DNA of 64,000 nucleotides from Xylogone sp. PMI_703 (Eukaryota > Ascomycota > Leotiomycetes). Both the position numbers and the translations under genes were made by a program. The stretch's first letter is position 1. Each line of letters begins with the position of its first letter. The notes under the pieces are model-generated. The model was not told the origin of the DNA, did not search any database, and worked only from the letters and a program-made list of their open reading frames with translations. The DNA is taken from the NCBI GenBank assembly GCA_021399445.1, contig JAJTUQ010000003.1, positions 1,488,001 to 1,552,000 on the forward strand. The letters run 5' to 3'. Positions 132 through 50,884 of the stretch are shown in pieces.

Positions 132-881
132 CTATTCTAGCTCAGCCCAGTTCAAAGGGACACATGTTTGAAACATCAAAGGACTAAACGTCATCTCGTG
201 GCGATATTCCTCAATATCTTGCATCCCAACGTCGTAAATTTCCTTCATAACTATTTTGGCGCAGTGAATAGAGTGCATGAAGTCTGCGACTTTTGAGTCG
301 AGCAGCGGTAGACGGTTCATTACTGCTAAAGCAAGCTTTCTCCAACAGTATACACAGTGCTCATTGTGGAAAAAATGTGCGTATACATCCAGGTCGTCAC
401 CCTCTCGGAGTTTTCTCATTCCTTCTTCATCCAGCTTTTGAGTCAGGTTGGCATCGTAATACCATTCTCGGTCATCGAAGGGGTGGTACTCCTCGCTTGG
501 TTCCGAAGTATAGCAAGCGTCTGGAATCCAAGAGCGTTGCATTGGCTCATAGTGGCATCCAGCTGCTCGGGCTTGCGCTGCTGAAGAGCCACAAGGGATC
601 CATTCTAAGGTTTCTTTATGGCTTTTGGGTGAACTATGCTGCGATGACAGGAATAGCAACACCGCGCCGACTAAGAGGCTGCTGACGAGGACTCCCAGTA
701 ATATCTTGATGAAATGCTTGATTCGGGCTCGACGACGATTTCTAGTGGCGAGCCCAGCTAAAATTTCCTGTTCATCAATTGATGAGCGATCATCAGCCAG
801 TAATTTTTCAAATCCAGTTGATTCTCTTCGTCCAGAGATCATTGTCACGTCCTTGAGATTGCGCTTCCAAGAGAGCGGCAT
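132..881 (-). CDS. UstYa-like membrane-anchored oxidase, divergent double-HxxHC type (paralogue A)
   Basis: This single-exon gene encodes 249 residues. A basic cytosolic stretch (about 45-56) precedes one membrane segment at about 57-79, followed by a lumenal domain. That domain contains a WxxCGxSxxxARAxGC block at about 93-109 and two HxxHC motifs, HNEHC (172-176) and HSIHC (203-207). Paired HxxHC motifs after a single membrane anchor are the hallmark of the DUF3328/UstYa proteins that oxidatively cyclise or cross-link dikaritin core peptides. The block around the first motif and the conserved ARAxGCHxxPM region differ from classical UstYa, so this is a divergent branch. It pairs with the paralogue at 1628-2317 across a shared 746-base promoter region, and a RiPP precursor lies 7 kb away. 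Oxidase activity is inferred from family and context. The ATG used is the first in frame before the anchor. Confidence 0.72.
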   Translation of the reverse strand: MPLSWKRNLKDVTMISGRRESTGFEKLLADDRSSIDEQEILAGLATRNRRRARIKHFIKILLGVLVSSLLVGAVLLFLSSQHSSPKSHKETLEWIPCGSSAAQARAAGCHYEPMQRSWIPDACYTSEPSEEYHPFDDREWYYDANLTQKLDEEGMRKLREGDDLDVYAHFFHNEHCVYCWRKLALAVMNRLPLLDSKVADFMHSIHCAKIVMKEIYDVGMQDIEEYRHEMTFSPLMFQTCVPLNWAELE

Positions 882-1627
882 TTTAAGTCTGGGAAACTGA
901 TTCTAGTATAACAAAACATTCACAGCGGACTCAAATGCAGTACAGGATTAAAAGGAAAAGCCCCGTTACTTCTGCACGATTATTTTCAGAGCTCGGAGAA
1001 GGTGAGAAAATCGCGCACTGTCTAAACTAACAGAAACCATCTACGCAGATCTTCGAGAAAAGGTGAGGATATATCAGTGGAACTGTGATGTCGATCCATT
1101 CGATTCGCAGAACTAATATTTTGGTGATACATGAAGAGGCAGTTCGGGTAAAGTTGCACGAATTTGACATGCAGATGAAAATTGCGCTGTTGATTGGAGA
1201 CCACTTGCATCAATATGAGGTACGTTAAGACAAGTGGACCCCTCCACATTAGGAAATCGCGTTACAACATTCCATCTCTCGAGTTATTTAGACAATCAAA
1301 GATCTTGGGAAGATCATTTGCGTAAACGCAATGCTGCGTGCAAAATTGTCACCCACATAGTATCCGGTTCTAATTGCTCTTCATGTCCTAGCCGGAAAAG
1401 AGCTCTGACAATGCGTGGAGAAAAATTAATAGCATACCAGCATGTAGATGTAGCAGCCCGGGGTTTTCATACCTGCCAGTAGTTCTACCAAGCGCGATAC
1501 GCGCTTCCGGCGTGCTCTTTACTCTGCACGGATAATAAGCTTAGGCATAGACTGTGATAAATAGAATCTCTATCCCAGTTGCAAACTGGTCGCCTGTTCG
1601 GTAACACGTTGCAGTAATTCAGTAGAA
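882..1627. promoter_or_regulatory. Shared divergent promoter region of the two UstYa-like paralogues
   Basis: These 746 bases separate the start codons of two head-to-head paralogues. I see no convincing gene here: the short reading frames lack family features. The arrangement suggests one bidirectional promoter, but I could not identify a specific operator. Confidence 0.45.
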
Positions 1628-2317
1628 ATGTTTCCGTGGAGGTCGAGCAACCGGAAAAGGGCGAGTGAGGAGAGCTCTGCAGAGGCGGAACATCCTTTGA
1701 TTGAAAAGTCAATTCTTGAAAGTCAGAGAGCAATATCGTCGGTACGAGGATCTAATGGTACCCGCCACTTAATAACAGTGCTCCTGATTTGTGCCGCTGG
1801 AGCAATAGTTGTCCTCGTTTCAGGCTTACTTGGAGCATGGATCTCGCCTAAAGTCCACAACCGTCAATTGAAATGGACATCGTGTGGAGAGTCAGCGGCT
1901 GAGGCAAGAGCCAGAGGCTGTCATTTTGATCCTATGTTGATTTCCTGGGTCCCATCGGCGTGCTATATTCCAGAACCTGGCGATGAATACGACGTAGCGG
2001 AATTTCAGTGGTTCTATGACGAGAACAAAACACAGCCAGTACCGCCTGACGAGATTCGCAACGGCGAGTATACACATGTCTTCACGGATGGAACGCACCA
2101 CGACCAGCACTGCATTTACACCTGGAGAAAGCTCTCGATTGCAATTGAGAAACGACTGCCTTTACTAGATTCAAAGACAGCTGATTTCCATCACTCTACT
2201 CACTGTGCTAAATCCGTCCGCGGAGTTGTGCAGGACGCTTTGAAGTCAGTGGATGTTTACAGCAAATATTATTCCTCGGTACCAAGGTTATTCGCAGAAT
2301 GTGTTCCACTGTTTTAA
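1628..2317 (+). CDS. UstYa-like membrane-anchored oxidase, divergent double-HxxHC type (paralogue B)
   Basis: This single-exon gene encodes 229 residues. It has an N-terminal cytosolic stretch, one membrane segment at about 48-71, and a lumenal domain with WxxCGESAAEARARGC at about 83-98. The two histidine-cysteine motifs are HDQHC (158-162) and HSTHC (189-193). It is clearly paralogous to the protein at 132-881: they share the ARAxGCH[F/Y]xPM block, the W[I/V]P..CY segment, the EEY/DEY acidic stretch and the [N/D][E/Q]HC[V/I]Y.WRKL signature. Family knowledge points to an oxidase acting in the secretory pathway on RiPP cores. A two-subunit arrangement is plausible because several dikaritin clusters use paired UstY proteins, but that is inference. 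Between this gene and the next stands 1.1 kb without a recognisable gene. Confidence 0.72.
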   Translation: MFPWRSSNRKRASEESSAEAEHPLIEKSILESQRAISSVRGSNGTRHLITVLLICAAGAIVVLVSGLLGAWISPKVHNRQLKWTSCGESAAEARARGCHFDPMLISWVPSACYIPEPGDEYDVAEFQWFYDENKTQPVPPDEIRNGEYTHVFTDGTHHDQHCIYTWRKLSIAIEKRLPLLDSKTADFHHSTHCAKSVRGVVQDALKSVDVYSKYYSSVPRLFAECVPLF

Positions 2318-3395
2318 AGGCACAGCGGTGGCAAAGACTTGATACCAAGGAGTTTGTTAATTCATGAAAAGGGGGCCCAGGGCACATGAAGAGATAGCCA
2401 GTATCGAGAAACGCTCACCTTCTCATAGTATAATTGATTAGTATATCCATAAGAATTGCCTCGCTTTAATTCATATTTCAATGAAATAGCGTGGATGGCG
2501 AAATTGCATTATCCTCAGAAGTCCCGTCATCCGCGACATTGAGTTTCTCAAAAACAATCACTCCGCATGTTAAGGGTTGGATGTTATCGATCTGCAACAA
2601 ACATTTGGCCCAAGCTGTAAGACAGATATACATTAATTGAAGCAATTAGAATAGTTACATCTCGAGCTATATTTACTGGCCCTCAGAAGATCTCCAGTTA
2701 CTCTCTTCTCTGAGGGCGGGGCTGCCAACAATCAGTGAGTATACAGCCCAGTATGTTTCTTGCAATTCTGTAGTCCCCCAAGTAAAACCGCAGCCCCCCC
2801 ATTAGTGTATGCATATAACTTTTTTTTGAGGGGGGGAATTATAACTAGACAAACTCACTAATTCTCTAGAGTGTACCAAAATTAAAGATTCTTAGTTTTA
2901 CTTATTACGGAGAGAGCGTATCGCTTTGCATGCTACCGATTCCAATGGCTCGCATGAATCCCAATCGTTTCGACTTACCGAATTGAGTTATACGCGATTA
3001 TTAACAATACAAGGCAGGTGTATTAAACATATATAGATGATGTGCATATTTTCTCTAGTGGCGACCTCCTGCGACCCCGGCTCTTGAACAGTAAAGCGAG
3101 AGCCCTAATTCTAGTATCATGCGGGGTTGAGCTTTGATAGTGTAGGAAAGGCGAAACGGCGTGTCAACAAGCTTGCTCGTAAGATTGGTGAGCCCAATGC
3201 GAGTGTGACTCTAGTGTGTGACTCTAGTGTTTGACATGGGATATAGTAATGTGTGTGGCACTTTTTTCGGGACGCGATGCACTCCTTTAAATGAAATTGA
3301 TCTCACAATCATACATGTAAAAAGAGAAATTGCATCTTGATAGATCAATAGCAAACCTCAGCCAAAACCAACAAGCTGTTACAATACCGAGTACC
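2318..3395. other. Intergenic, no gene recognised; contains poly-C/poly-G arms and a regulatory motif candidate
   Basis: This AT-rich spacer holds a C7 run near 2793-2799 followed by a T8 and G7 run near 2819-2836, which could pair as a weak hairpin. A GGCGAAACGG decamer lies at 3150-3159. An imperfect tandem repeat of TGTGACTCTAG occurs around 3205-3232, about 165-190 bases upstream of the UstYa-type start codon. No coding potential was recognised. Confidence 0.4.
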
Positions 3396-4372
3396 ATGGA
3401 AGCTTCGAAAACATACCTGCCGGACCCAGAGATACGGTATTCTGCTCTTGAGAAGGATGAACTGAGCGGGGATGAATTCAGTGAAGGAGAAGATATCCAG
3501 TATAAGCCATATACCAATTATTTACGATTATGCACTGACTTAATTCAAGCCATTTAAGACCAAGACCCAACCTTTTTGCAAGGTTCTGGAAGAACATTCT
3601 GTTGTTCTTAACAGGCACTGCATTAGGTCTCTCATTTGCTTCTTTATTTTCAGAGGGACATTCGCAGTACAGTGTAGCCGGTGTACCAACATGTAAGTTC
3701 CAACTTAATATTACGAAGAAATGCAGACATACAGACTAATACGGGTGACCGAAAATAGCGGTAACTGAGGCGGTTACGACTAGAGTATGGCAGCCAGATG
3801 ATCGATTTGCCTTAGAGAGACACGATAATGAGAGTGCTCAAGCATGGGAGGCTTTACAATCACGTATGTCATTCCTTCTTGTAGGAGTCTGAGCTATACA
3901 AGTCTAACAACACGAAGGCTTCATCTGGGTTGACGAACCTATGAAGAAAGGATTACCCCCGTCATATCCCCAAGGAGGAGATAGACAACTATATTCAGTT
4001 GCTGGTTTTCATCAATTGCATTGCACGTAAGTTACTATACTCCATTTTCTTCAGCAGAGTGCAGCTAATGACATATGGCACAATAGATGGGTATTATACT
4101 ATTCATGGAACGAGTTGGTTGAGCACGGAACGGAAATCCTAGATGCAGAATTCCCAAATACGGGTGGACATTATACGATCGGTAATCACTTCAGCCATTG
4201 TGTAGAAATTATCCGCCAAGCACTTACATGCTACGCTGATCCAACATTGGAGCCCATGATCAGTCTAGACGGAGTGACTATTTCAGAATCGGGGCTTTCT
4301 AGTGGATGGGGGACCACACATACTTGCCGAAATTTTGAAAATTGGGTTGAATGGCTTGATGCGCAGCCTTAA
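3396..4372 (+). CDS. UstYa-type dikaritin cyclisation oxidase (DUF3328)
   Basis: The spliced gene encodes about 248 residues from five exons: 3396-3499, 3550-3692, 3759-3863, 3918-4026 and 4087-4372. All junctions keep frame, and several introns show CTGAC/CTAAC branch points 10 bases before the acceptor. A cytosolic N-terminus precedes one membrane segment at about 48-69. The lumenal domain has the expected AW..L stretch (about 111-116), HQLHC (149-153) and HFSHC (188-192). These paired HxxHC motifs define UstYa proteins, which act on dikaritin core peptides, commonly through tyrosine or tryptophan oxidation and ether cross-linking. This is the most canonical member of the three in the island and therefore the best candidate for core macrocyclisation. 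It lies upstream of the transporter and precursor on the same strand. Confidence 0.85.
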
Positions 4373-5243
4373 TTAAATACATATGTTAAATATCCCATAT
4401 ATTAGAAGTTAGGACACGAAATGTAAAGTTATTGAAACTTATATTAAAAGTAAATTTCTCAAGTGAACTCATGGTGGTAAACGTTTAGAAAGATAAACCT
4501 GTATATTATAATGATAAAGTTTCAGTCATTTACTTTAAGATTCATCAATATGGCGTAACTATTATCTATTTGTCGATTCATTGCCTCACATAGTATTAAC
4601 ACTATTTTTCATTTGTGTTTATTACAAATTACTACTAGGATCCGTTGAGAAGCACATCAACAACGCTATTGATATTATGTCTGAAAAGGTTACTAAGGTC
4701 AAGGTGCACAAAGGGTGTGTAGGAACGCATGGAGATGTATTTTGCTACAGCAAAGCTATTTTACAGGAAGGTGTGGTGTTGGCCTGTCACATGATCTAGC
4801 CGAGGCTCTCTCAACAGGGTGCCTCCAAGGGTAGTAATTGATTGCATGGTAATAGAATTAAAGTAATGAAATAGTAGTGTACAGCTGCTTGATTAGACAG
4901 GCCGAATTTGGTAGCTTGTGGGGTTGGACAAGTCATTTCTGACACTCATTATGCACCTTTAGTACGCTGCACATCAGTTAACTAGCGCAGCATGCGTAGC
5001 TGTTAGGATCGGAAATTCGAAACGAACTCTTACACGCTTGCTGACTCCTTGCATAAGGTAATTAACTTCCAACTGTTTTCGCAAGCAGCGTCGGCATCTA
5101 TGCGAGGGTAATTGCTATCGACTCGATATGTAAGCTCATTCTTTGCTCGTTAATCACCTTTTTTGTAATGAACAAATGAATCTTTCATAGACTAACTGCA
5201 CTCTATCACTGAGTTTATACATACGGCATCATAACGTCTCGTA
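4373..5243. other. Intergenic; unexplained 72-codon reading frame and motif copy
   Basis: An open frame at 4581-4799 has a hydrophobic N-terminus and two cysteine-containing segments, but it matches no family I recognise and may be spurious. The sequence TCGAAACGA at 5017-5025, about 220 bases upstream of the transporter start, resembles the GCGAAACG motif seen elsewhere in the island. Confidence 0.3.
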
Positions 5244-7029
5244 ATGGAAGCTATTGAAAGCCAAGACCAACTGTCTCTGGATGGTATCAATGAGCATAAA
5301 CCGCGAAACTTTGCACGCATGCTTGCTCTAACGGCGGGCCTAGGAGGGTGAGCACTCTTTAATCTTCCTAGAACCGGTTGCATAATCTGTACTGACAAGA
5401 GCAAAAATTCTTCAGACTTCAATGCATCTTTTGTGTTGAGTTCTCACTTGCATCGGTATGTCCTCAAGAATTTCTCATAAAATTTTGGAGAAAATGACTG
5501 TCTAAGACTCTGGAACTTGACTGTTTTGTATAGTATGATCACTAAGAGTATCTAGTTGCATCTCATCTCACTTGGAATCCCAAAGTCAACAACTGCTCTT
5601 ATCTGGCTCTCTAGTCCCATTGCTGGAATAATTGCACAGCCATACTTTGGGACTTGGAGCGATAATTTAAGGTCTGAATGGGGAAGACGAAGGCCTTTTA
5701 TACTTGCTGGAACGGCGGTAACAATCATATCTCTTCTCAGCTTTGCATGGATAGAGACAATCGTCACAAAAGCATTCTGGCTGCTGAAACTAAATTCAGA
5801 GGGGCAGAAATTCTATGTTGCACTTGTTGTTTGTGCGACTATATGTGTCCTGATGCTCAACATAGCCATCCAGGCTATTCAGTGTGGAATGCGTGCATTG
5901 ATTGTTGATAAGTGTTCGGCACATGAGCAAGCAAAAGCATCAGCCTATGCTAGTTGCATGATTGGCGTTGGAAATATGTTTAGCTATTTCGTCGGATCGC
6001 TGGATCTCTCTAAGATCACTCACACTTCTTTTGATGAGACGCAAATCAAAGCGATGAGCTTCATAGCTTCGCTAGTTCTTTGCTTAAGCACTGGTGTAAC
6101 CTGTGCCTCGACAAATGAGACTAATAACGACGTATTTCCTTTCCAAAAGATTCCAAAGTTGACAAAAGAATCTCTATTTGCAAGGCACAAGCAAATTTTC
6201 ACGGCGGTTCTCACGATCTCGCAGACGGTTAGACGAGTATGCGTGGCTCAACTATTCGCCTGGTTCGGCTGGTTTATCTTCTTAACTTACAATACACTGT
6301 AAGGTTCATTCTGCTTTTAAACCAACAATACTGACTGCCTATAGTTACACAGAGCAGATTTGTGCGATCTACCATTGTATCTCTGTCAATAACGGTTGAA
6401 GGCTAATTTTAATAGACATATCCGGAAGTTCAACGATTAACTCCCATAACCAGCTAACGACGGCTGTCTCAGCAAAGCGGGCAGCCAGTCGACTTTCCTC
6501 GGTGGCATTACTATCATTTGCTATTGCCAGCTTCCTTGTAAACGTCGTTCTACTCCTAATATTCACTCGAATACGTTCAAATCAAAAGAGCAGCTACTTA
6601 GACGTAACCGATAATAGAAATCGGTCCTTGACGAGGACATTATGGACTTACTCTCAAGTATTTTTTGCTGTTTGCATGTTTGCTACAGTATTCATAACCG
6701 ACGCATTGCCCGCAACAATAATGGTCACTCTCGTGGGGATTAGCTGGGCAGTCAGCAACTGGGCGCCTTTTAGTTTGGTTGCAACGGAGGTTGCTAGTCA
6801 GCTAACAGGAGACAATGGTGCAGGTATATCCTTCGGTCTTCTCAATGTTGCAATCTGTCTACCACAGGTGCTTGTGGTAATTGTGAGCAGCATACAGTTT
6901 AGGTTCTTTACTTCTAGCTCTCTATCTACTACTGACTACCGAGGATATGGTATTGTATGGCTCTTTTGTTCTGGAGGAATCTCCTCTTTAGTAGCAGCTT
7001 ATCATATCACTAGAATAAATAGAAACTAA
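5244..7029 (+). CDS. MFS transporter, GPH/sucrose-transporter (SUT)-like
   Basis: The spliced product is about 510 residues from five exons: 5244-5347, 5416-5455, 5556-6298, 6345-6376 and 6416-7029; all phases agree. The protein shows many hydrophobic segments, consistent with about 12 membrane helices. A SUT-like signature follows the second segment: LGIPKSTTALIWL, then a GxxSDxxxxxxGRRRPF cytosolic loop. That loop is characteristic of the glycoside-pentoside-hexuronide/sucrose transporter group in plants and fungi. Its position between the UstYa-type gene and the RiPP precursor suggests it exports the mature peptide or imports a sugar. The former fits the context, the latter the family. Dikaritin clusters often contain an MFS transporter, but a SUT-like one is less expected. 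The short exons 2 (40 bases) and 4 (32 bases) are inferred. Confidence 0.82.
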
Positions 7030-8215
7030 TAAGGAAGAATTTTGAGACCAATAATGCTTTAGATCAGCTGTATATTGTGATAACAAGGCTAGGTAATTAT
7101 AAGCGGTCACAATTTACGATTTTATCCAGAGTTGAAAGATTTCAACTCTTTTCACGAGTGTCATATTCAAATGATAATGTACTCTAATCCTCCTTTACAA
7201 TGATGCGTTGGCCCACACTCTAGTAAAAAAGCCCCGTCGTTGAAATTCCTTATGGCTCCTTATGCTTCAAACTATCCGTAATCATTTTACTTTATCTCAA
7301 CCGAACGGGTGATTATTTTCATTCGGCATAAGATCGAATACCTTAGCTTCTAGCTGACAGACTTGTCACTCTTCCTACTGGTATTGTGCTTCATTTGTTA
7401 GGTTCCTTAGGAGATCCGTTTCGCCAAAGTCATCACTAGTTCGCGTCCCAGACATGACAGATCAAGGGATGGGAGTTGAATCAGATGACACTTCCCCATT
7501 CCTTACCATAACTAGCATCAAGGTTACCATACTAAATATGGTTGGCAAGGCGAAACGGGGCGAAACGAGCATGAGGCAATTTGTTTGTGTTGTACTGCAG
7601 TAGCGTTTCGCGGAACGACGATCTTATTACCCGTATTAGGAAATTGGCAATACATCCAGGACCACTCTCGCTACTGCATTGTCCCATGCTTCTTGCTCAC
7701 ATTGCGCAAGACCCTGCTTCCAGCAAATGCGACTTCTAGTGGCTAACCGGTTAATTTACATGGAGAGTAAATATGTCTCCAGCAGGTACGAATAAGGTGA
7801 AGAGGTCAACTGCTTTTGGCTCTACAAAGAAATGGCGTAACGCTCTTGTTCCTTGTCAGCACCAAACATCTTACGCAAAGATGGAGCAGCTATACAATCA
7901 ATAATCAGAATCTTGCAACAGGTCAAATGGGCAAGGCGAATCGAGAGAAGTTAAGCAGTCGGTAAGCTTGCACATGAGTCCAAGGTATGTGTGCAGATGT
8001 CCAACGTTTCCTCATGGCATACCTTCACTTTCAGCAGCTTAGTTCAACCTCCCAACCTTGCTTCACCAGACTAGCCATTAATTCCAGCTATATAATGTGC
8101 TCTGTTTGCATTTGGAGTGGACAGATCAGAGCATCTACTTGCAACCGATACTCTAACATTCGGGGCTATCACTGATCTAATAAATTAAGATTTCTTTACA
8201 CTATCCTCTTCCAAA
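7030..8215. other. Intergenic region upstream of the RiPP precursor with clustered GCGAAACG motifs
   Basis: No convincing gene is present; a 62-codon frame at 7987-8175 lacks recognisable features. The stretch contains CCGTTTCGCC (7416-7425), GGCGAAACGG (7549-7558) and GGCGAAACGA (7559-7568), and a related GCGTTTCGCGG near 7603. These are candidate binding sites for a cluster regulator. Confidence 0.4.
8089..8096 (+). promoter_or_regulatory. Probable TATA box of the RiPP precursor
   Basis: TATATAAT lies about 120 bases before the precursor ATG, a usual distance for a fungal gene with a short 5' leader. No other TATA-like element is closer. Confidence 0.5.
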
Positions 8216-9195
8216 ATGAAGGCTTCTTTTGCAACCCTGCTAGTAGCAGCTCTCAGCCTAAGTGCTTCAGCTCTTCCTCTTGCTACATCCGATGGTAAGA
8301 GAGTCATCATTATAAGAAAATATGGTTTTTGCTAGCCAACCTACTAATTATCTCCCGAATTATAGCACTCCAAGTCAGGAACCAAGAAAATAGAAAGCTT
8401 GCGTATGGTAAGATTCCCAATAAAACATTGTATTGTATTTTCTGTATTGCATAGGTGGCTAAACTTAAGACCAGCACCACAACCAGAAGCTAGAAATCAA
8501 GAAAATAGAAAACTAGCATACAGTTAGTATTGCCAGAGATTTCAAACTGTTGTGCGTAACAACTTACACCTTTTAAGCATCCGATGTGGAGGCCCGGAAC
8601 CAAGAAAACAGAAAGTTGGCATATGGTAATTCTTGTGCCGAGTTTAAGTGTATCTAAATACATACTTACAGTTTATCAGCGCCTGAGGTAGAGGCCAGGA
8701 ACCAAGAGAATAGAAAGCTTGCCTACGACGTGGAGGCTAGAAACCAAGAAAACAGGAAACTTGCTCATGATGTGGAGGCCAGGAACCAAGAAAATAGAAA
8801 GCTTGCTTCTGGAGTAGAGGCTAGAAACCAGGAAAACAGAAAGCTTGCTTATGGTGTAGAAGGCAGAAATCAGGAGAACAGAAAATTAGCATATGGTGAG
8901 AGCTTCCATATCCGAGTGTGTGCTGATATTAACTCTCCTCTAGAACCTGAAGTGCAAGCCAGAAACCAGGAGAACAGAAAATTAGCATACTGTAAGTACT
9001 ATAAAACCATTTACACACAACTACTCAGACCTCTATTAGCTCCTGAAGTAGAAGCCAGAAACCAGGAGAACAGGAAACTTGCCTACGGCGTGGAGGGCAG
9101 AAACCAGGAAAACCGCAAACTTGCGTACAGTAAGTGAAATTCTAAAGTTTTAGCAATGATCTCTAGTACTCACTAGTATAGGTGATGCTGAGTAA
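8216..9195 (+). CDS. Secreted multi-core RiPP precursor (dikaritin/victorin-like), 11 repeats
   Basis: The inferred mRNA has eight exons: 8216-8294, 8366-8407, 8475-8522, 8578-8625, 8680-8895, 8944-8991, 9040-9129 and 9182-9195, encoding 194 residues. The start carries a classical signal peptide with likely cleavage after Ala19. The rest is almost entirely eleven copies of a 13-16 residue unit, consensus VEARNQENRKLAYG. Nine copies end the core in Tyr, one in His and one in Ser. All introns are phase 1, and every internal exon is a multiple of three; three of them are exactly 48 bases with one repeat each. A signal peptide, identical repeats and UstYa genes nearby are the established features of fungal dikaritin-type precursors. 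No KR or RR Kex2 site separates the units, which is odd. If the last intron is retained, the protein ends at 9137 instead. Confidence 0.85.
8366..9129 (+). repeat. Eleven-copy core-peptide repeat region, partly one repeat per exon
   Basis: Copies are distributed by exon as 1, 1, 1, 5, 1 and 2. The amino-acid unit ARNQENRKLA is invariant apart from the residue before Arg (Ala, Gly or Val), while codons differ between copies (for example AAT/AAC, CAA/CAG, CTT/TTG/TTA/CTA). The protein is therefore conserved more strongly than the DNA, which indicates purifying selection on the peptide. The spacer residues (APE, SDV, PEV, YD, YG) vary. Confidence 0.9.
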
Positions 9196-9966: not shown

Positions 9967-11490
9967 CTATCCAAACTCAGTATGTAGCGCCGACACGGTT
10001 CGTGGTTGAGTAGGGGCCCAATGAGGGCCCACTTGATTACCTGGACTTTCTAGGTCCAGATCAAATCGATCTGGGAGTTTCATGCCCATCTCTTGATGCT
10101 TCTGACTTGCAATTGCAGATATACCATCCTTGAAAAGCCACACATCATTGGTTTCATACTGCCATGCCTCGACTTTCGCGCGGCAATCTAGCAAGTCTGC
10201 TTCATACTCCTTCTCGCCGACCAGATTATGCACCTCATCTGGATCATTCTCCAAATCGAATAGCTCTTCAGGTCCGCGGAAGAGGTATTTCTCTAGCGGT
10301 CGTTTGCCTATCATCACCGGTCCATCCACGTTGCGAATACCTTCCCAAGACAGGCTTCCATACAAATCAGTGCCAAATGGGAAATCCAATCTTCAGGCAA
10401 TATTGCGATGGTATTTGAATTGACGTGTACGAAGAAATCGTGTTGGCCAATAGTTTTGGATTTCATGGAAAGTGTGTGATCCGAAGACGTGCTGTTTCCA
10501 CTTATCAGCTGGCAATAGCTCCGATGAATCTAAAATTGAGAGGAAGGACTGGCCGAATTGCGGTGGAGATTTGCCCGTATTAGCAGTTCTAACAGCACTG
10601 TCTGTAGCTCCAGCCCAATCAAGGCAGGTAGGCAAGATGTCTAAGAATGATACCATATTTGGATTAACTATGCTACGCGGCGAGCCTGGGCACCTCACAA
10701 TCAGCGGTAGCTTCACGCCGGCATCGTAGAGTGTCGTCTTCGAATTTAAAAACGGAGCCCCGTTATCACTAACGAAGATGACCAGCGTATTCTCTTGTAG
10801 GCCGTGCTTCTTCAGCGCCTGCATGATAAGACCGACTCCGACATCCATCCTACTGATCGATTTGTAGTACTCGACTAACTCGGTGCGTAGCTCAGGCACA
10901 TCGCTGATGAAAGATGGTATCTCAACGTCCTCTGTTCTATATTCGGGAACATTAATATTAGCAGCGATCACGTCTTCTTCATCGTTACCAAACCCTTCTC
11001 TTGAATCGTCTCGGTGTGGATCCCGAAATCCAATCGTCAGGTGGAACGCCCGATTGGTCTCCTTGGCTTTCTCGAAAAAAGCTTCAGCACGAGAAACGTT
11101 CCATGTGACATCTCGGCTTTTGCTTTCTTCGTATATTTTTTATGGATAGACGGAGCGTGGTCCAACATGAACTTTACCGATTATTCCGGTCTGGTATCCG
11201 AGAGTATTGAAGATCTGAGGTACGGTCTCGATATGGTCATGCGTCTGGAAGTGGTTGTATCCGTGTGCCAGGCCATACTGACCATTTTCATGCGTATGAA
11301 GGCCAGTGTATATGGTTGAGCGGCTCCCACAGCAGGATGCAGTGCTTGCAAAAGCATGTGTGGACTTGGTTCCTTCTGCAGTCAGGTTGTCGATATTGGG
11401 AGTCTGAATATTTTTCAGACCATAGCATCTTAGGCAAAGTCCCAAATCATCCGCAATGAGCTGGATGATATTTCGCTTGTGGTCCGCCAT
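9967..11490 (-). pseudogene. Sulfatase (N-sulfatase/arylsulfatase family) with two in-frame stops
   Basis: A single continuous frame of 508 codons runs the length of a typical sulfatase. It is interrupted by TAA at codon 117 (11142-11140) and TGA at codon 366 (10395-10393). Coding similarity continues in the same frame past both, so these are nonsense changes, not frameshifts. Visible features are the N-terminal IADDLG metal-binding strand (about 12-17), the sulfatase cysteine motif in ASCCGSRSTIYTG (formylglycine site, Gly where Pro/Ala is usual), GKVHVGP, and FVSDNGAP for the second metal-ligand strand. The second stop sits where relatives have Trp (NIA-W-RLDFPF), suggesting TGG to TGA. Neither stop is flanked by convincing splice sites. 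It stands head to head with a similarly damaged MFS gene, suggesting a lost pathway for sulfated substrates. Readthrough cannot be excluded. Confidence 0.8.
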
Positions 11491-12000
11491 GACGGCACGG
11501 AGGGCCAGGAGCCAATTCCTCGATAAGTGAAGAGGGTTTCAACGATTTTTAGGAGAAACGTCGCTGAAGTCGAGAGCAGCAGCAATATTTGTATCTAACT
11601 TTCCCCCAATCCGTGTGATGTAACTTCCGTCGGCCCGGGAATTGTTGAGAGAATGCTAATTCGGTTGAATCTACTGTTCCGGCACTCGGTGCTCGAGGGC
11701 CGCTCAAAAAATGAGGCCGGTACCACGGTTGTCCGTGCTACGGCTGTCGGGGGACTACGATGAAATTTCACTCCAAGCCGATGATTTATGCGTGGAGAAG
11801 TCCAAAACTCCGCAAAAACAATCGCAGCCCCCATCTTTGCAGCTCACCAATAACCAATCAGCTCTGTGCCACCCCTATATGGAGCTCCAGACAATCCTAC
11901 ACTATAAAGGGTAATGGACATAGAAAATTATTCCCCGTCTTCGTACTACTAGCTGTCATCACTTTTGAACTGACTGTAGCTTGGACTCAACCTTGTCACC
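11491..12000. promoter_or_regulatory. Divergent promoter region between sulfatase and MFS pseudogenes
   Basis: These 510 bases separate the start codons of two divergently oriented, both disrupted genes. They probably once served as a common promoter. No specific motif is assigned. Confidence 0.35.
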
Positions 12001-13832
12001 ATGCTCAAAATATGGCGGCAGATGACGCCCTACCTCATCTTCAACGCCCTTGTTTTCTTGCAAGGAGCGCTTCTGTTCGGAATGTATGCTTCCACTGTTG
12101 CTACACAACATTACAGTTGCGCTGACAGAGTACAGTGACACGGGTTCCTTCGGTTCACTACAAGCACTACCGTCTTTTCTAAACCGTTTTGGTGTCAGAA
12201 ACACTAATGGTGCTTTCCAGCTGCCAGCAGGAAGAAAGTCGCTGACGAACTCACTGCCATGAATTGGCAAGATCTTAGGTTGCCTTGGTGCTGAATCCAT
12301 GATTGAGCATAACGGATACAAGATGACTATGTACATTGCAGCGGGAATTCAAATAGTCGCCGTAATAAGTATCAACGCTCCCGCTGCTATTGAATCTAAG
12401 GCGAATAGGAAGTGCTGACACCATTACAGTTGAGCTGACGGCGGATCACTGGGCACAGTTCACTGTCGGCCGTATTATCGCATATTCCGCTGTTGGTCTC
12501 GTTGAAAATGCGGTGCCATCATACAACGCCGAGACATCCCCGGCAGCAGCACGAGGGCTGATGTCTGCATCAATAATGCTAGTGACTGGGCTTGGGAATC
12601 TCTGGGGAGCAGGCATGTCATGCGCATACTCTACCACCACGACTAGAAAGGGCTGGATGATTCCTACTGCTATGCAATTTATCCCGGCTATTGGATTACT
12701 CTGCCTCATCCCCTTCACTCCAGAATCGCCTCGATGGCTTATCTTGAAAGGCCATAAGCAGCGTGCTAAGGAAGTACTTGATAAGATCCGCACGAAACAT
12801 GAGGTCGAGAGTGGAGCAACAGCTGCAGAGGTGGACATCCTCGAGTCAATTATTGAAGAATCTCTAGCTACTGAGCAAGGTTCTTGGCTAGATATCTTCC
12901 GAGGTAACTATCTGCGACGTACCTGGGTAAATCAGTTATTCGTAACCGTTAGAGTGATATTACTGACCTTGATCAGATCTCAGCCACATTATTCGTTCTA
13001 GAACAGACCAATGGCAACCAGTTTGTACAATCATGTGCAGCCACATTTTATGTTCAACAAGGACTCGGATCTATGTCGTTCACATACACTATGATTGGGC
13101 AGGTCGTGGGCGTAGTGGGATGCGCAATAGGCATTATACTTTTAGACATTAGCGGTCGTCGTCCTACTTTCATCTATGGCAGTGCCATTTGTGCCTTCTT
13201 GCTCTATCTTGCTTCCGGACTAGGGACAATTCATCCTTTGAACCAAAACGCATCAAACACACTTCTGGCTTGCTTCATGCTACTTCCTGCGTTTACTCGC
13301 ATTTCGGCTTCAAACAATGCATTCCTTACAGGTGCTGAGATTGGCGGAGTTAGGATGAGGAAGAAGATAATGGTAATTCCTTGAAGTCAAGTTTATACAG
13401 CCCTATTTCTCTAACCTCAATGACTAGGCCTTCGGTACCGCCTGTGACGTTGCAGCCGCCTTCCTTGTCACCTTTGTTACTCCTTATTTGCTCCCCAGTA
13501 TGGGCGTCAATATTGGCTGGATATTTGGGAGTGTAGCGGTATTTTCAGTGATCTGGGGCTTCCTATTCTTTCCAGAGCTTAAGGTTAGGTCCTCTTTATC
13601 TTTACTTCTCCATCTGATTTTAGCTAATATCTGTTAGGGACGATCATTGGAGGAAGTCGATGAGCTTTTTGCTGCTAGACTGTATGTCTGGCGATTCAAG
13701 AAGTATGAGACTCATGGGAGAGGCCGCCTTCTCGCAGACATCGAGATTGAAAAAACAGATTTACAAAAGTCTCACATTGAGGAGATCGAACTTTCCAACA
13801 CCAAGGGTTCTGTGAGTAATGAAAATACTTAA
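12001..13832 (+). pseudogene. Sugar-porter MFS transporter with one in-frame stop
   Basis: Six exons can be joined in frame: 12001-12083, 12136-12368, 12430-12926, 12977-13372, 13428-13583 and 13638-13832. They give 519 residues, the normal size for fungal sugar porters. Family features are the N-terminal GALLFGIDTGS segment, GRIIAYSAVGLVENAVPSYNAE, PESPRWLI after helix 6, LEQTNGNQF, and PELKGRSLEEVDELF near the C-terminus. A TGA at 12260-12262 (codon 70) falls in LP-x-IGK, where Trp is expected, so it looks like TGG to TGA. No intron removes it with acceptable sites. Everything else, including all five introns, is intact, so inactivation appears recent, or the sequence has one error. It is divergent from the disrupted sulfatase. 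Confidence 0.78.
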
Positions 13833-14755: not shown

Positions 14756-16731
14756 TTAGAGAAAAAATATGTCTATTTGCAAGTTTCTAAGGGCATCGCT
14801 CCAGTCGACCCCACATTTGTTCTGATTTCGTTCTCGCAGTGCCCAACATGTTTGGATGACTTTACCAACGTTTAAGAGAACTCCTGGTTCAGATCTAGTG
14901 CCTATCTCAAGAAGGTCGGTAAAGAAATCGTAGTGCTGAGGTTGCGCCATACACCCGGCAATGCAAATAGGCCAAGCCAGATACTGGAGCAAGCTTGGAC
15001 CAGGCAAGCTCTTCAAGGCGTCTATTGTTCGCTCAACCTGTCGTTCGACCTCCTTGAGGTTGGAATATGATCCCGACACTACTATTTCTAGGAGAATTCC
15101 AGCGGCGAGAGCGAAAACGTAGGTAATTGTTTGTTTGTCAATTGCATGTCTGTCACTGACCCTGAATTGTGCAAGTAGAAAGTCTAGAGGCTCTGCTTGT
15201 CCCTGACCACTCGCCCGAATGCCGTCTTCTAAAGTCGTTCTTATTTTACCTGCTCGTTTCATCAAGTCCCAGAAACTGAGAGAGCGAGATGCCTCGGCAC
15301 TAATTTTCCAATCACGTAAGGAATAGATGGATAAAATACTTATCACTACCCAGCTTTGACAGCCTGTAATTTCCTCAAAATTAACTCTTGTTCCCTTGGT
15401 CTGTAAGAAGTAAATATACTGTTCACAGAGCTCTGGGGAGATATTAGAAGGCTCGGAGACATCAGTCAAGGAATTGAAGCTTGAGAGAATATTAGACCAC
15501 ATCACAAGTCCGATCGCCGATGTTATGACCACATTGTTGCCAGAGTTTAAGTCTCTCTCATTGGAACTGGCGGATATTGCATTCAAAATGTCTCCTATAT
15601 CATCATTTGCTTCTTCTGGGTGTCTTCCTCGCTGTAAATTGCTGTCTGTGATATATTGCTGCAGAATGGACGTAGCTGCTTGTAGATGGATTCGCCAGTC
15701 GCGGCTCTCTCCATCAAGAAACTGGTACTGGAAATCAGCCTCTTGCTTTTCAAATGTCGTGTGACCACAAGAACATACACTTATAAACATGAGCATGATA
15801 ATACACAGAAGAATATCTACATTTAACTTGTCGTCTCTAAGACTCTGGCATCCATACTGACTTTGTTGGAGTGAGGACAAAAGACCATTTATAGCTAGGT
15901 TATAACGGCTAGCAACATCATCTTCACCCATTCCAGTCATATTGGAGATTCTCGGTCTATGCACCAGAGACAAATGAGACGCACTCAGCGCAAGCACCGC
16001 TAAGTAAACAGTTTGATTTTGGAGTATGAGACGAAGTAGCCAATCTTTTGGCGATGGGAAGCTTTGGCCCGGGTGAAACCGAAATTGCCAGTGATACACA
16101 TTCTGTAAGTAATGAAGTAACAGCATGAGTCGTGGAGACTGATTGAAGTAAGCAAATGAGTAGGTGAAGTAGCTTCTGGGAGGCAGCTGGATGAAGAGCT
16201 GGTCAAAACGTCGCTGAGTAGTGCGGGGCTGATGGTAGGTGATGTGTCACTTATAGGCTCAGTTTGTAGAGCCGTGCCAGTGCCCTCGTCTGTCGTGTTA
16301 TCCTCAGTCTCATACTGCTGGAAAGAATGCTGTGTATTTGTGCGTGTTCTAACACTGGAGGCAACCGTTGCAAACTCTGTCATGGGATTTGCATTGATGC
16401 TTCCTTCTGTTTGCCTAGATTGAGCATTGGTAGCGTTACTGTTCTTGTTTCTGGAGCCATTTAATGTTACTTGTAGAGGGTGATGGTACTCTTCAAGTTG
16501 ACGATTCAAGAGTTCTCTTCTTCTCATAGAATCGACTGTCATTATTTTTATCTTCCTAGATTCGGCTCTCTCTCTCGCGCCATTGCCCTTCTCCATAGGG
16601 CTCTTTCCATAGCCGTGACAATTCATTCCTCCTGTTAAACAGCGCGAACAATGAGGACGACCTTCGTCACATTTCTTCCGTCGGGAACGACAAGTCCAGC
16701 ATCCAGTACGACTACGGGTCTCCTTTGCCAT
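14756..16731 (-). CDS. Zn2Cys6 transcription factor with fungal-specific regulatory domain
   Basis: The product is about 634 residues if exons 16731-16210 and 16138-14756 are joined. An N-terminal Zn2Cys6 binuclear cluster (C11, C14, C21, C28, C31, C38, spacing 2-6-6-2-6) is followed by a basic linker, a long Ser/Thr/Asn-rich stretch, and a helical C-terminal half starting SPRLMLLLHYLQNVY that resembles fungal_trans_2-type domains. The two halves lie in different frames. A 71-base intron (16209-16139) restores the frame and ends with a normal CAG, but it has an unusual GTTTTG donor, so a one-base frameshift is the alternative. As a DNA-binding regulator it might control the neighbouring MFS/sulfatase pair or the RiPP island, whose precursor lies 6 kb beyond. 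No direct evidence decides this. Confidence 0.8.
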
Positions 16732-19700
16732 TCTCGGAGTTCTAGATTGTTGAAGTATTTCGATTGAGAGCCTCTCACTATGAGATTATCTTCTCGCTGA
16801 AGGTGTTAGGAAATCAATGCGAATATTAGCTCCTATGTTGAAATAGACCTATAAGATAGGTTTCCTGAAATGAAGCATTTTTAGTTCCCTATGTAGTAAC
16901 TCGGATATGTACTATATTTTGGAAGGCATAATTTCAATTATTACTACAATGATTTAAGCTATCTTGCTATACCTCACTACACTGAGAACTCACATGACCC
17001 CTAGTCCCGACGCTCGCTGCATACGAGATCTTCACTGCAAAAGGCGCATTATTATTCTCTTGATAAGGTTTGGTTCACGCATGGATTGCATTAGTATTCT
17101 CTCGCAATTGGTTGTTTACTGCTGACATATTGCAGATCTCCGTCAGCTTACCATCCGATACAAGTATCATTATAGAATATCGTTATCCTCGTTGACGATG
17201 CATCGGCGCTCACAAGCTACTCAGTGGGGCCGCTAGCTTCAAACACTGTATACTGTATAATACGGCATCACTGATTCGCTCTTGATTCGTGTAATATTAA
17301 AGCAAGATGCAGCACAGCTGATAAAGCAGATGGAGCAATTAAGAAGCATTGGAGAGGGTAAAAACAACCTTCTCAGCCCATACATTTTACGTCAGAACCG
17401 AACCCAGCAAATCCTAAATTCGCCTTTGCGCTAGTGAATGGATGCTACAGCCCCCTCAATTCCCAATTCAGGGATTATAATAAATTCTGCACTGTATTAC
17501 ACTGTATTACAGGACAGTACTTACTACTTATAGATAGTCCCTTGGAGCTGCTTTTGGCTTGTAAATCTGGTACCTGTACGAAGCCCTATCCTTGAGTTGA
17601 TAGCTTGACGGCCGTTGTGGGCTTACTTGTGCTAAGTAAATTAAAAGCAATTGGCTAACCACTCATTATGCTTAACTATCTGAGTTGAAAGGCTTCTCCC
17701 GCCTCAAGCTTTTTACGTATGGAGGGATGGCATCCGAAGGGCATACCTTGTCACTTTTCGTAAAATAAGGTGCATCTCACATCGGATCTAGGAGCAGATA
17801 TCATTGTAGTCAGACGGCTAGAACTGCTGCAGGCGATGCCAGACGGCGGAATGAGCTGGACTAGGAAAATGAACTTATCTCAGTGCAGGTGCAATGTAAC
17901 GTTATACCTCGCGTACACACGAATCACTATAATGGTATAAGGTACTGTATCGGGACTGTAGAATAATGAATGCAACACGGCGCTGCCGGTAGTCTCTCTG
18001 TATGCATTGCGCACAAGACTCTCATGGGGTCGTCAGCGCTAGGAGAGATTTCCTGTGTTTTGTCTCAACACGGGAGTAAATTGCGGACAGCTCCCAAAGT
18101 CCGCCACTAAATCGCTGCGCGTCGGCAAACCCGGCCCCGTCGCTTGTGGCGCCGCGGTGATCCAGACGCCCAAGACGCTTGGCGACCTCCAGCCGAGCAG
18201 CCGAATGGGCATAAGGTAGCACTTGCTGGAGCAATCCAGGTGAGCAGCCTCACTTTAAAGTTCTGATAAATAAAACAGAGATTATCTTGATAAGACTCTT
18301 ATCCTACCTGGCTATGGTGCCAGAACTTCCCTTTCTCCCTCTCTTATGCAAGATCCGGCCAAAAAAGGCTGAACGTCGAAATCTTGTAACAACTCAAGCA
18401 TTCGTTCATCCTCAGCTAGCTTCCCGGTTCGGCTATGTGGCGGATTACAGATCGGCAATTGGGATATACGCCCTAGATGTGCGTGATCTGACACTTCCCT
18501 GGGCAATGGCCAATGATGCTCAACTTCGTAATATATCATAAATCACCTGGTGTAGTCGAGCAGTGTCGAGATGTGACTGATTGGGGGCCATGTGACTGGG
18601 ATTGCCCTATACGGCCCTTAGTTAAAAAACATAAACATGGTATAATACTCGGCACTACGTACAATGCTGTGGAATCATGCATACTGGCCAGTTATCGAGC
18701 TGCGTCCAGCTGGATGATCATTTTCTATAGTATTCAGCTCATGGATGCTGATTGAAACAGCCGTGGTCTATTTGCCATGGATTAAAGATCCAGAGTGCTG
18801 TTAATTACCCGATCAGGAACGGAGACGGAGTTTCTGTGGCTTCGTTTACTCCTGCAAGTCCGCAATATCCGACATTGACCGTATATCCTATTGTACAGAT
18901 CGTTAGTGCAAGCAGGGGATTCCATAGAAGCGGTGAACGCCAATGACTGGGATCCTGAACGGATGGTTGGCAACAGCCAATTAACATAGCCAGCGGGCAG
19001 TACCTCAATTGCCAGATGGAGTGATTGCTATAGAATTGCGGACCTCTACCGGGTAACTTCAGAAGCCGGAGAAAAGTGGTTTCACGATAGTTTAAGCGAT
19101 TAAATTTGCATTATTAGCAGCTGCATCCTGCGGATGGACCTCCGAGATTCTTGGTCACAGTGTTCAGTTAGCCCCGAGCATAGCGTCCTCTTCCCTTGTT
19201 TCAACTGATAGTACAAATAGAATACAGTCTGGATCAAACGGAATGAATCCCGTTTCTGCGTATCCCTAGCGGATGTTGTAAAATTTTCAACTTGTATGGA
19301 TTTACAGAGCTCCGAAAAACTCATTCAGCGTTAGGGACGCATTTGTAGCCTTCTTAAGAAGCGATAAGAAATACTTAATACCATTGTTCATCTCCTGTGG
19401 ACTTGAAAAGACAATCCAAGCCATCGTCGTTCAATGCTGATATTTAATATCTTTCTTCATGATACCATATAATCCCTTGAAAATGACTGTGGAGCTAGGT
19501 CTGTATTATGGCTCCATATATTTCCATAAGGGCTAACCTATATCCACTTGCATTTTACCTAAATTCACTTTTCAATATCACTCCTGCACATAATCCAAAC
19601 GCTTGACTTTCTAGCGTTGGTAATACGGACTGTATGGCGTTACATTTAGCCCACACTTATCCCCCAGTCCTGCAGCCATTTTTGTGAGGTTAGACGGTAT

Positions 19701-43660: not shown

Positions 43661-46600
43661 CTAAGCCATTACTCTACCGTCCCGCATCTTATTTTTCAGC
43701 AATGAAAATTTCTTCATCTTCTTTACTGGCATTTCTGTCACCAATAGCTTTGCATTACTCGCCATTTCGCCGAGTGTAGGATACTGGAAGATGTCTACCA
43801 CCGAGATCCCGATATTCGCTTCGCCAGCTTGTGCAACGAGATGTATTGCTGACAAAGAGCTTCCACCCATAGCAAAAAAGCTGGAATTAGAGGTTATAAG
43901 GCTATCATCAATTCTGAGGATTTGTTTCCATAGTGCCAGGAGTTTAGTCTCCATCGGTGTCAAGGGCACGCGAGGCTTGAGGCTGTTGGCGGAGGAAGAA
44001 GATGGTAGGCAGAGTTCGTGAATGGAGACCTGACTTGCCAGGTGGCGCAGGGATTTCCGATCTGTTTTACCTGCAAGGGTAAGGGGGATCCTGGAAATTG
44101 GTATGTAAGCTGTGGGAATCATATGTGGTGGCAGGTCGATGGCCAGCTTCTCGCGGAGGCCTTCAATGAGACCCCCAGCCTCGCGATTAGCGTGTTCTGA
44201 TGTAAGTATGATATCGCCTTTTGTATCTATCTCGCCCCTAGAGATGAAGATAAATGCACCAAGCATAGACTCCTTCTCATGCAATGGAGTGATAATATCA
44301 ACTACCACCTTGTTCGCGGCAGGTAAATATTTTCGCAAATGGTGTTCCACCTCTCCTAGCTCGACTCTCAATCCTCGTAGTTTCACCTGGGTATCCTTTC
44401 GTCGGATGTATTGGAGAGAGCCGTCTGATTCAAACCTCACTAAGTCTCCGGTTCGATATAGTCGCCGTGGCCCTTTTGACACTGTATAATCCATCCATTT
44501 TAGATACTCAATGAAACTCTTCTTTGTCAAATCATCCCGATTCAAATATCCAGAGGCTTGACAAGGTCCTTCTAGGAATAACTCTCCTATAGTTCCTATT
44601 GGTGCTAATTTATCATTATCATCAATATCGGTGATCCAAGGGCGCAGGGTGAATGACCTTCCTATATTCGCCGGGTCAGAGTCATCTGCGACGATCGTAG
44701 CGGTGTTGAGGATACATGTCTCTGTAAGACCATAGATTTGAATACACTTTAAGTGATCAGCCCATGCCTTTATATCTTCTGATGTCGCAGGCTCGCCACC
44801 TATCACCAAGGTCTGTAAGGTTGGGACTTCTGTGTGCTTAAGGAGCCGAGACACAGTCGGGGTGGTGAACAGAAAATTAGCTTTCATGTCATCAATGCTA
44901 GCTGCTAGACTATTGAGCCTATCTGCCTCCGAGGGAACACAAAGACAACCACCCGAAGAAAGAGTGCAGTATATATCGCTGAGACTGAGATCGAATGTAA
45001 ATGACGAAAATTGGTATGTCCTGGTCAAGGAAGAGTAACCTAATTCTTTTGATATCTGACTGATAGCAGTACACATTGCTCTATGAGTCAGCAGAACTCC
45101 TTTGGGCCGCCCTGTGGAACCGGAGGTAAAAAGTACGCAAGCTAGATCCTCGGGTCGGCTTTTCGTATTGTCTGCTAGGTTCGTAGGAAGGCTTCGGACA
45201 AAAGAGGACGCGATAACTACCTCGCGTAACAGGCCTGAGAATCTTCCAGCAAATGACTGAGACACGAGGACAATCCTTGCTTTGCAATCTTCAATGATAC
45301 TGGTGTGACGTGAAAGTGGATCAGTTACTGCGAGAGGCACACAGGCACCGCCAGCCTTAAGGATAGCAATAATGCTGACCAGTGCCCACATTGATTTCTC
45401 AATGCAGAATGGAACCATGGTATTAGCTCCAATGCCGAGACTTTTGAGCAGCACGGCCAAATTTGTGGATAGATCATCCAGTTCTTTATAAGTTAAGTCA
45501 CCGTCCCATGCAGAAATTGCCAGAGAATTTGGTTGGATCTTGACACGTTCCTCAATAACAGTGTGCAGGCAACTTTCTACAGCTTCCGGTATCGACCGAT
45601 TCCACTGTTCAATATCAGCAATGTCAGCCGGACTGATCAACTCCAGATCTTTGATCCTTCTTTCAGGCTTCAGTTGTGATATCTGTGAGAGGATGTGCTC
45701 AAACTGTCCCACGATTCGTGACACCTGAGTCGAGTCAATTACATCACTATCAAAACTTGCTTTAACGACCATGTTAGAGTCTCCCTTGAGGAAACACTCC
45801 AGGTTCAATGGATATGTTACCGAGTTCTCCATGTTAGTGTTGAATCGTATCTTGTCCGATGGCAGTTCCTCTGTTCTCAGGCTAGAACTATAGTCAGGCT
45901 GGACAATCAAAATATTTTTAAATCCGGTAGCCACTTGTGTTGAAGGGCTCAGGTCCTTGATATTTTGCAGTCCCAAAGTTGCAGCTTCAATCATCTCAAT
46001 GTATTGGTGCTGAATGCGGTGGAGGAAGTCCACTACGCTTTCACTCTTATCAAACTTAACTCGTACCGGTACGGTGGAAAGCGTGGGTCCCATAATATCC
46101 TCAATGGCTGGCAATGGTATATCACGACCACTTAGCATCATGCCGAAAATGGCGTCCGATGAGTCCTCGTATCGTGCTACGAGTAAAGCCCATGCTGCCT
46201 TTATCATAGTGGCAATTGTTATATCCGTATTCGTTACAGGTAAGAATCCAACTTCTCGGACGACCTTGCTGTTTGTGATTGAATATAACTTTTTTGTTCT
46301 TGCAACTGGGAACGTCGGTTCAAGCGCATCAGCCAAATATGTCCGCCAAAACGTCTCAGTGTCTTTTGATTTAAGGTCTTGAGTGTGGCTAAGGAAGACA
46401 TTCATTCCCAAAGCCTCCTGGGCAACTCCACGGTAGTAGAACTGTTCAACACGACTGACAATACTAGGAATAGTCCACCCGTCATATATCGCGTGATGCG
46501 CCGTCCATATGAGGTGGCGGGTGCCATTACCTTTATCATTGGCGATTGACCAGCGATTGAGAGGCTGACCATATGGCATCGGGATCGTCTTATCATGAGC

Positions 46601-49561: not shown

Positions 49562-50884
49562 GTATTCAGCGTGCAAACGTCGAGAACAGCGTTCACTGTA
49601 AGTCACGATATAATTCCCATTGGGGTTCCTCGACGGTGTGAACGCCACGGGTTATGTAACGTAGACTGCTAGAATTCTGGATATTTCTGAAGGAACAATG
49701 AAAAGTTGAAAAGCAAGGAGCATTGGTGCTTATCACTGATATAGTCATCAAAAGTAGATCACTCACCGTCGTCTAACACAAATTGATAGAATTGAAGCTC
49801 AAATAGGCATGACGCCACGATGGTACCTCTTACCTTCTTGTTATTCAGTATTTCGAGCCAAGCGCTAGCTCCTGAGCTGGAGCTGTAGCGGCAGCTAGTG
49901 CAAGGGGAGAAGCGCAATGCCCCCTGACTCTACACTGGCGTACCTGGGTCTGCCTTCTGCAACTGAGTACTGGGCATATTAGATTTGCAACTAATTGTGA
50001 TGCGGAGCCTCGAAGGTGGTGCGAGGTGGCATTCGTTGAGGCGCATGCCAAAGAGGAAAAGCGCAACATGCGAGCGTGGCATCATTCAGGCTGTGGATCC
50101 GGTTAAAGACACAATGAGTTACGGTCGCTCTTCTACGCGACGGAGGATATCAGACATTGTTCTCCTCGCCGTGGTTTACATTGTATTATTCTTTTCTATT
50201 GGATCGTTATCACTCATATATCATTAGTGATGTGTATAATTTGGTTCAACTCTTTATGCAATCTTTTCTATCCGCTTTGTATCTGATCAGGTGGTATTGA
50301 TCTCCACTGTAAATTATGTAAAAATAGCCTGAATTAGAAACGGTTAAGAGCTTAAGAGCATATATATCGCGTTATAACATAGCCTCTCCAGAGCGAGAGT
50401 AATTCTTGTAAATCAAGGTCATACATTTGTGCACGATAGCCACCCAAAGTATTGCCAACCCAACGTGACTGGCATGAGGTTGCCATAGGTTAGGTTTGGG
50501 ACCAATGATAATAATCATAAGCTCTGATGCCTGAAGAACTCAGCCCTTTCGCGAGGCGACAGCTGAGAGGAGGCGAGGGCCATACATTAAATGATGCCAC
50601 CCCCCGTCCATGACACTGTTGTAGAAAATCTGCATTCTGCTCCACCTGTGAGAGGTAGGAACATGGGAAACTGGAATCTCATAGTAAGCTCAAGGGCCAC
50701 CTTAGTAGGTGTTAAGTTATCGCAAATGTGTGTTACTTAAGCCGATCATAGATGAGAGAGGCAGGGGGAAATCACTTTCAGCGTTGTTTTCCTTCATTAA
50801 ATTCTCTGCTTTATTCATTTTATCTTTGATGCTCTTGTTCTACGTCCTTTAAGATCAATTCTTGGTGCGTAGAGCGAGGCAGTC
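49562..50884. other. Divergent intergenic region between NRPS and ABC transporter
   Basis: This is a likely shared promoter zone for two genes of one cluster. I looked here for a 5' exon carrying the missing first half of the NRPS condensation domain and found none. Short frames on both strands are featureless. Confidence 0.4.

Follow-up and report, generated by a model that had tools for sequence, protein, structure and literature searches.

A 64,000-nucleotide stretch of the genome of Xylogone sp. PMI_703, a member of the Leotiomycetes (G000:C19:1488001-1552000, hereafter the window; genome of 50 Mb in 25 contigs), carries at positions 132-9195 five genes, namely, UstYa1, UstYa2, UstYa3, a major facilitator superfamily (MFS) transporter and a repeat precursor, which very probably form an UstYa-type (dikaritin-like) cluster for a ribosomally synthesised and post-translationally modified peptide (RiPP) with an undescribed core. 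We favour this reading because the repeat precursor is predicted to be secreted, its repeated peptide is under selection, three proteins with paired HxxHC motifs are encoded at most about 8 kb from it, and a like pairing recurs at other loci of the genome. An earlier note on this DNA had proposed an undescribed fungal RiPP cluster from a signal-peptide repeat protein, three membrane-anchored proteins with paired HxxHC motifs and an MFS transporter within 9 kb. All of these elements were found again in the gene models, and the proposal is well supported on the four grounds just given, although the tyrosinase of the older description of dikaritin clusters is absent.

The precursor gene (8216..9195, + strand) comprises eight exons, and removal of its seven GT...AG introns, 48-71 bases long and all in phase 1, gives a 194-residue protein, MKASFATLLVAALSLSASALP..., which starts with a predicted signal peptide (called from hydropathy and reading), followed by eleven copies of RNQENRKLA[YHS]. 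The array spans 8377..9128 (+) from the first Arg codon to the last Tyr codon, with copies starting at 8377, 8492, 8595, 8697, 8739, 8781, 8823, 8865, 8961, 9057 and 9099; the eleven near-identical repeats previously announced are thus all present in the spliced model, and part of the array (8684-8884) was also called by Tandem Repeats Finder. RNQENRKLA is the same in all copies, and the tenth residue is Tyr in nine of them, His in one and Ser in one. These two replacements each affect a single copy within 8739-8810, and a precursor at another locus (L062) likewise alternates Tyr and His at one site.

Six of the seven introns are placed one base past the codon that ends a copy. Among the ten inter-copy junctions, the five with an intron encode six-residue spacers (APQPEA, TSDVEA, APEVEA, EPEVQA and SPEVEA), and the five without encode four-residue spacers (DVEA twice, GVEA once and GVEG twice). 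Introns 5 and 6, of 48 bases each, are stop-free, and therefore the reading frame alone cannot exclude their retention; their excision brings back the regular spacer pattern. This arrangement would fit the multiplication of an exon-plus-intron unit with later expansion lacking introns, a history that we infer rather than observe since the introns are barely alike: among the 21 intron pairs, the best z-scores were 3.2 (introns 3 and 4) and 2.4 (introns 1 and 5), with all others below 2, and copying of introns together with repeats was not clearly seen.

Each of the nine codons for RNQENRKLA takes more than one form across the eleven copies, giving 15 extra codon forms, every one of them silent, and because this variation is always silent, the repeated peptide is under selection. 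Under a simple neutral single-step model with a transition weight of 2, all-silent variation has a log10 P of about -8.9. At the protein level, none of the 55 copy pairs differs at any of the nine block positions, compared with 19 of 55 at the tenth, while among copies 2-11 the three spacer positions preceding the block show differences in 9, 9 and 16 of the 45 pairs. An estimate of synonymous and non-synonymous differences per site (pS/pN) by mutational-path counting was set aside, with pS above 1.

No relative of the precursor was retrieved at E 0.001 among 5298 scored candidates from a database of 5.8 billion proteins, in a search restricted to subjects of 0.55 to 1.75 times the query length, by which a very differently sized annotation would be missed. 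None was found elsewhere in the same genome, outside the locus. UstYa3 of this strain is present in the protein database, and the precursor, even itself, was not returned, which may be due to the division of its repeats by short introns. A literature search for RNQENRKLAY, NQENRKLAY and NRKLAY found no paper, subscription papers being mostly outside its reach, and a RiPP from Xylogone was not among the matches listed in the literature searches.

With regard to the putative oxidases, each of the three carries a hydrophobic segment and two HxxHC motifs. UstYa1 (132..881, - strand; 249 residues, single exon) has a transmembrane segment and the motifs HNEHC and HSIHC, and UstYa2 (1628..2317, +; 229 residues, single exon), which belongs to the same subfamily and shares 41-43% identity with it, has HDQHC and HSTHC. 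UstYa3 (3396..4372, +; 248 residues; exons 3396-3499, 3550-3692, 3759-3863, 3918-4026 and 4087-4372) carries HQLHC and HFSHC. The earlier note had placed all three in the UstYa family; the paired motifs hold throughout, but only UstYa3 passes the curated cut-off of 25 bits for Pfam UstYa (PF11807, also DUF3328). The UstYa3 model is identical to the deposited Xylogone sp. PMI_703 protein F5884DRAFT_897544, and its closest relative outside is an 'Oxidase ustYa' of Hyaloscypha hepaticicola (49%). UstYa1, in its 236-residue form P0001, scores 18.7 bits and falls outside PF11807, as does UstYa2, which gave no Pfam match.

Judged by sequence, two of the three oxidases thus represent an HxxHC subfamily that lies below the Pfam UstYa cut-off and is new here. 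UstYa1 has 33 database matches including itself, with named relatives in Xylogone, Chlorociboria, Cadophora, Pseudogymnoascus and Pyrenula, and none of its database relatives bears a precomputed Pfam domain. In an alignment of 34 subfamily sequences, Cys 84, 96 and 110 (P0001 numbering) are invariant and both HxxHC motifs occur in 32 members, the two exceptions (P0032 and P0033) being fragments; PF11807 at E up to 1 matches eight of the 34, with a best value of 0.00089. The AlphaFold model of UstYa1 (mean predicted local distance difference test score, pLDDT, of 86) displays a long N-terminal helix (22-69), and an HxxHC motif opens each of helices 158-175 and 188-206. A candidate match of UstYa1 to a solved structure was at chance level only (sequence E 0.11, fold E 9.8) and was rejected.

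The MFS gene (5244..7029, +) has several exons, its start and exon ends having been placed by eye. Exon 5556-6302 matches the Pfam families MFS_1 (5.7e-10), PUCC (6.5e-10) and MFS_2 (5.2e-7), and the Pfam scan of the later exon 6400-7029 returned no family. The MFS assignment proposed beforehand is therefore kept, with the correction that the protein resembles sucrose/SLC45 carriers.

Genome scans with UstYa1 and with PF11807 list best candidates, and all counts derived from them are lower bounds. The UstYa1 scan gave at least 42 matches (at least 41 once merged), and the PF11807 scan at least 108, or at least 83 after merging exons within 400 bases, a figure that may exceed the number of genes. 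Among the matches listed, the two sets do not overlap; for at least 32 of the 41 subfamily genes, a PF11807 match occurs at a distance of 10 kb or less, compared with 0.95 expected from coverage. The matches listed fall into at least 54 loci, of which 18 hold both kinds, 30 PF11807 alone and six the subfamily alone.

The reading for precursors covered part of these loci: 30 of the subfamily and eight of PF11807, each with flanks of about 1.5 kb, together with seven stretches of greater length. The 30 include two from the window, whose flanks stop short of its precursor, and some of the 30 neighbour one another. A peptide 6-mer scan detected repeats at six of the 30 subfamily loci and two of the eight PF11807 loci, and, applied to 19 background tiles, each of 3.5 kb, the same scan found no coding repeat. 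UstYa-type genes adjoin eight further repeat precursors (L002, L004, L017/L061, L019/L062, L022, L025, L030 and L041), each with a signal-like M[KH] start and with repeat units that differ, as judged by reading. Candidate cut sites are of the KR type in six, KK in L002 and a single Arg per unit in L025; introns between repeats are apparent in L004 and L062 too. Dibasic sites are absent from L025, which has a tyrosinase match nearby. As judged by sequence comparison, the nearest analogue of the window's precursor is that of L061 (G000:C20:213250-223249), a KRKTQSAPF-unit precursor at about 5710-6258, approximately 1 kb from a UstYa1-type gene. Its repeats, KRKTQSAPFRVEAENV, consist of an invariant block with an aromatic end followed by a variable V-E spacer, and the oxidase beside it (P0015) shares 51% identity with UstYa1 across 77% of the latter. 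No PF11807 match is among those listed within 280 kb of this oxidase and precursor (C20:217250-219507).

On this basis, the precursor would enter the secretory pathway, where cutting at basic residues would release short peptides bearing the invariant block. In the Golgi or endosomal lumen, each peptide would then be oxidised and cross-linked, with the Tyr of the block as the likeliest site, by one or more of the three anchored HxxHC proteins, which are probably copper-dependent. Transport of the product, presumably by export, may fall to the MFS protein. Copper in UstYa1-3 is inferred by analogy with CctR, a copper-dependent DUF3328 hydroxylase with two coppers per monomer at the motif pair, in which changes of motif residues lead to loss of activity (PMC12435403). 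CctR has an N-terminal tail, one transmembrane helix and HxxHC on two helices, as in the UstYa1 model; it differs in that its substrate is a non-ribosomal peptide (PMC12435403), and the UstYa1 subfamily is further set apart by invariant Cys residues of its own.

Where the precursor would be cut is a more tentative matter. A cut after the single Arg behind the variable spacer, giving (R)NQENRKLAY, is the likeliest, at slightly short of an even chance; a core ending in Tyr is favoured because of the parallel with L061, a single comparison. The second likeliest, a plausible but lesser candidate, is a cut after R-K, which would give LAY-spacer-RNQEN peptides. Calculated [M+H]+ values for linear peptides (with the value minus 2 H in brackets) are 1135.585 (1133.570) for NQENRKLAY, 1291.687 (1289.671) for RNQENRKLAY, 1349.644 (1347.629) for LAYGVEGRNQEN and 1421.666 (1419.650) for LAYDVEARNQEN.

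The designation dikaritin-like, also advanced in the earlier note, depends on the definition applied. It agrees with the DUF3328-based definition (PMC12048977), UstYa3 being above the cut-off and paired HxxHC motifs occurring in all three proteins. It does not agree with the older five-gene list given in the same paper: the precursor with leader and repeated motifs is there, the transporter or peptidase is represented by the MFS protein, though this is sucrose/SLC45-like, and of the multiple DUF3328 proteins, one is above the Pfam cut-off and two, with both motifs, are below, but no tyrosinase (PF00264) lies near the locus, and no methyltransferase was seen among the 32 frames, a subset of all frames, that were run through Pfam. 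The precursor falls under the rule for Kex2-processed repeat proteins, namely, at least three repeats of at least eight residues between KR, KK, RK or RR (PMC7329392), only through the eleven RK, as judged by the stated criteria rather than the authors' pipeline; RK is accepted as a site in that paper. Because the tyrosinase and methyltransferase of the older list were not seen and the repeat rule applies only via RK, we would call the locus a variant that, by analogy, works like a dikaritin cluster.

The locus resembles the dikaritins (ustiloxin, phomopsin and asperipin-2a) and the Kex2 repeat proteins in its signal peptide, repeats, several HxxHC proteins and transporter within 9 kb, and departs from them in lacking KR, RR and KK, in having no precursor relative found, in two of three oxidases being below the cut-off and in having no tyrosinase. 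Likened by description, the epichloecyclins derive from a multicore precursor (GigA) with nonapeptide cores, and NQENRKLAY also has nine residues; their crosslink joins an N-terminal Ile to an internal Tyr (PMC9233826), whereas here the Tyr would be C-terminal. In victorin, likewise compared by description only, closure joins a C-terminal aromatic residue to an internal Leu (PMC9233826), which the L-A-Y end of the block would permit, and no more; K-L-A-aromatic as a victorin signature is kept as a lead. Victorin is chlorinated and said to need cluster-encoded peptidases (PMC9233826), and no peptidase was recognised here.

Several observations weigh against an UstYa-type RiPP cluster. The dibasic sites of the 194-residue precursor are eleven RK, all inside the invariant block, with no KR, RR or KK, and the presumed cross-linking Tyr is missing from two of the eleven copies. 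The PF00264 scan gave 13 matches in the genome, none near the window; others lie within other UstYa loci (C1:8096533, C1:8102267, C19:6466760-6467457 and C5:319853), and therefore the classical tyrosinase-bearing type also occurs in this genome and the present cluster is not of that type. No P450, methyltransferase or peptidase was detected among the 32 Pfam-run frames from 20 kb upstream to 20 kb downstream, and the transporter has the likeness of a sugar carrier, matching SUC1 (3e-18) and SLC45A4 (1.5e-15). Profile comparison of the UstYa1/2 subfamily with ten UstYa sequences gave an alignment spanning both motifs, at E 4e-4 and a probability of 34%, a weak link. The AlphaFold model of UstYa3 is poor (mean pLDDT 58), and its placement of the motifs on helices 145-167 and 185-201 was given no weight. 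Finally, two PF11807 loci on C5 (L056-L060), read for 9 kb on each side, contained no repeat precursor.

The replacement of Tyr in two copies would also suit a protein that yields unmodified linear peptides for signalling, in the manner of a pheromone or hormone, with the UstYa genes serving another substrate, and DUF3328 neighbours were absent for 6120 of the 7878 repeat precursors in the survey by Umemura (PMC7329392). Against this stand the three HxxHC genes adjoining the precursor, the company that such oxidases keep with repeat precursors at other loci, and the fact that no gene for another substrate was seen among the cluster frames; we regard it as improbable. Still further from likely is the idea that the repeat protein stays whole and serves a structural, wall or adhesion role: it is general knowledge that secreted fungal tandem-repeat proteins are often wall proteins, but this one has only 194 residues, no Cys-rich, Ser/Thr-rich or GPI-like end was seen on reading, its repeats contain basic residues, its neighbours encode HxxHC proteins, and none of the 5298 scored database candidates was a relative at E 0.001. 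Equally remote is a silent or decaying cluster whose repeats persist without a product. Since a search of the protein set that holds UstYa3 did not return the precursor, the annotation gives its expression no support; precursor and oxidases nevertheless have intact frames, and decay would sit poorly with the 15 uniformly silent codon forms in the block. A RiPP cluster of UstYa type is thus the reading that we retain.

Downstream of the cluster lie genes for a sulfatase (9967-11538, -), a sugar transporter (12369-13384, +) and a Zn2Cys6 regulator (14756-16785, -). Upstream are a HET-domain gene, alpha/beta hydrolase frames, a carboxylesterase and, by reading, a regulator-like gene with no Pfam match in three frames. 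None of the flanking genes is an evident RiPP enzyme, and the regulators could control the cluster. A promoter and terminator scan based on bacterial signals was uninformative for this locus. A 107-base stretch, 81% alike between window positions 4718-4817 and L014:4529-4635, may be a dispersed element, and L013:9145-9666 holds a DDE_3 transposase frame. Upstream of the window, at a distance of about 17 kb, is a 1108-residue frame with TPR and CHAT domains (L013:545-3871). The window also holds a separate non-ribosomal peptide synthetase cluster (43661-49651, -; 51188-56175, +; 57289-58152, -; 59818-61293, +), with two AMP-binding stretches, one condensation stretch, two carrier domains, an M20 peptidase, ABC-transporter-like exons (membrane part below the cut-off) and a 491-residue frame with no Pfam match.

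The dikaritins reported by 2022 numbered five (PMC10512285), while DUF3328 genes lie near 1758 of the 7878 repeat precursors surveyed in PMC7329392, and the present locus adds an undescribed precursor. It also draws attention to an oxidase branch overlooked by PF11807 scans, with at least 41 genes in one genome, which makes the share of fungal RiPP chemistry missed by present surveys testable. That this UstYa-like branch acts on ribosomal repeat peptides, beside canonical UstYa or alone, is in our estimation an evenly balanced proposal. If true, entire fungal RiPP clusters would escape PF11807-based surveys, the one at C20:217250-219507 being an example.

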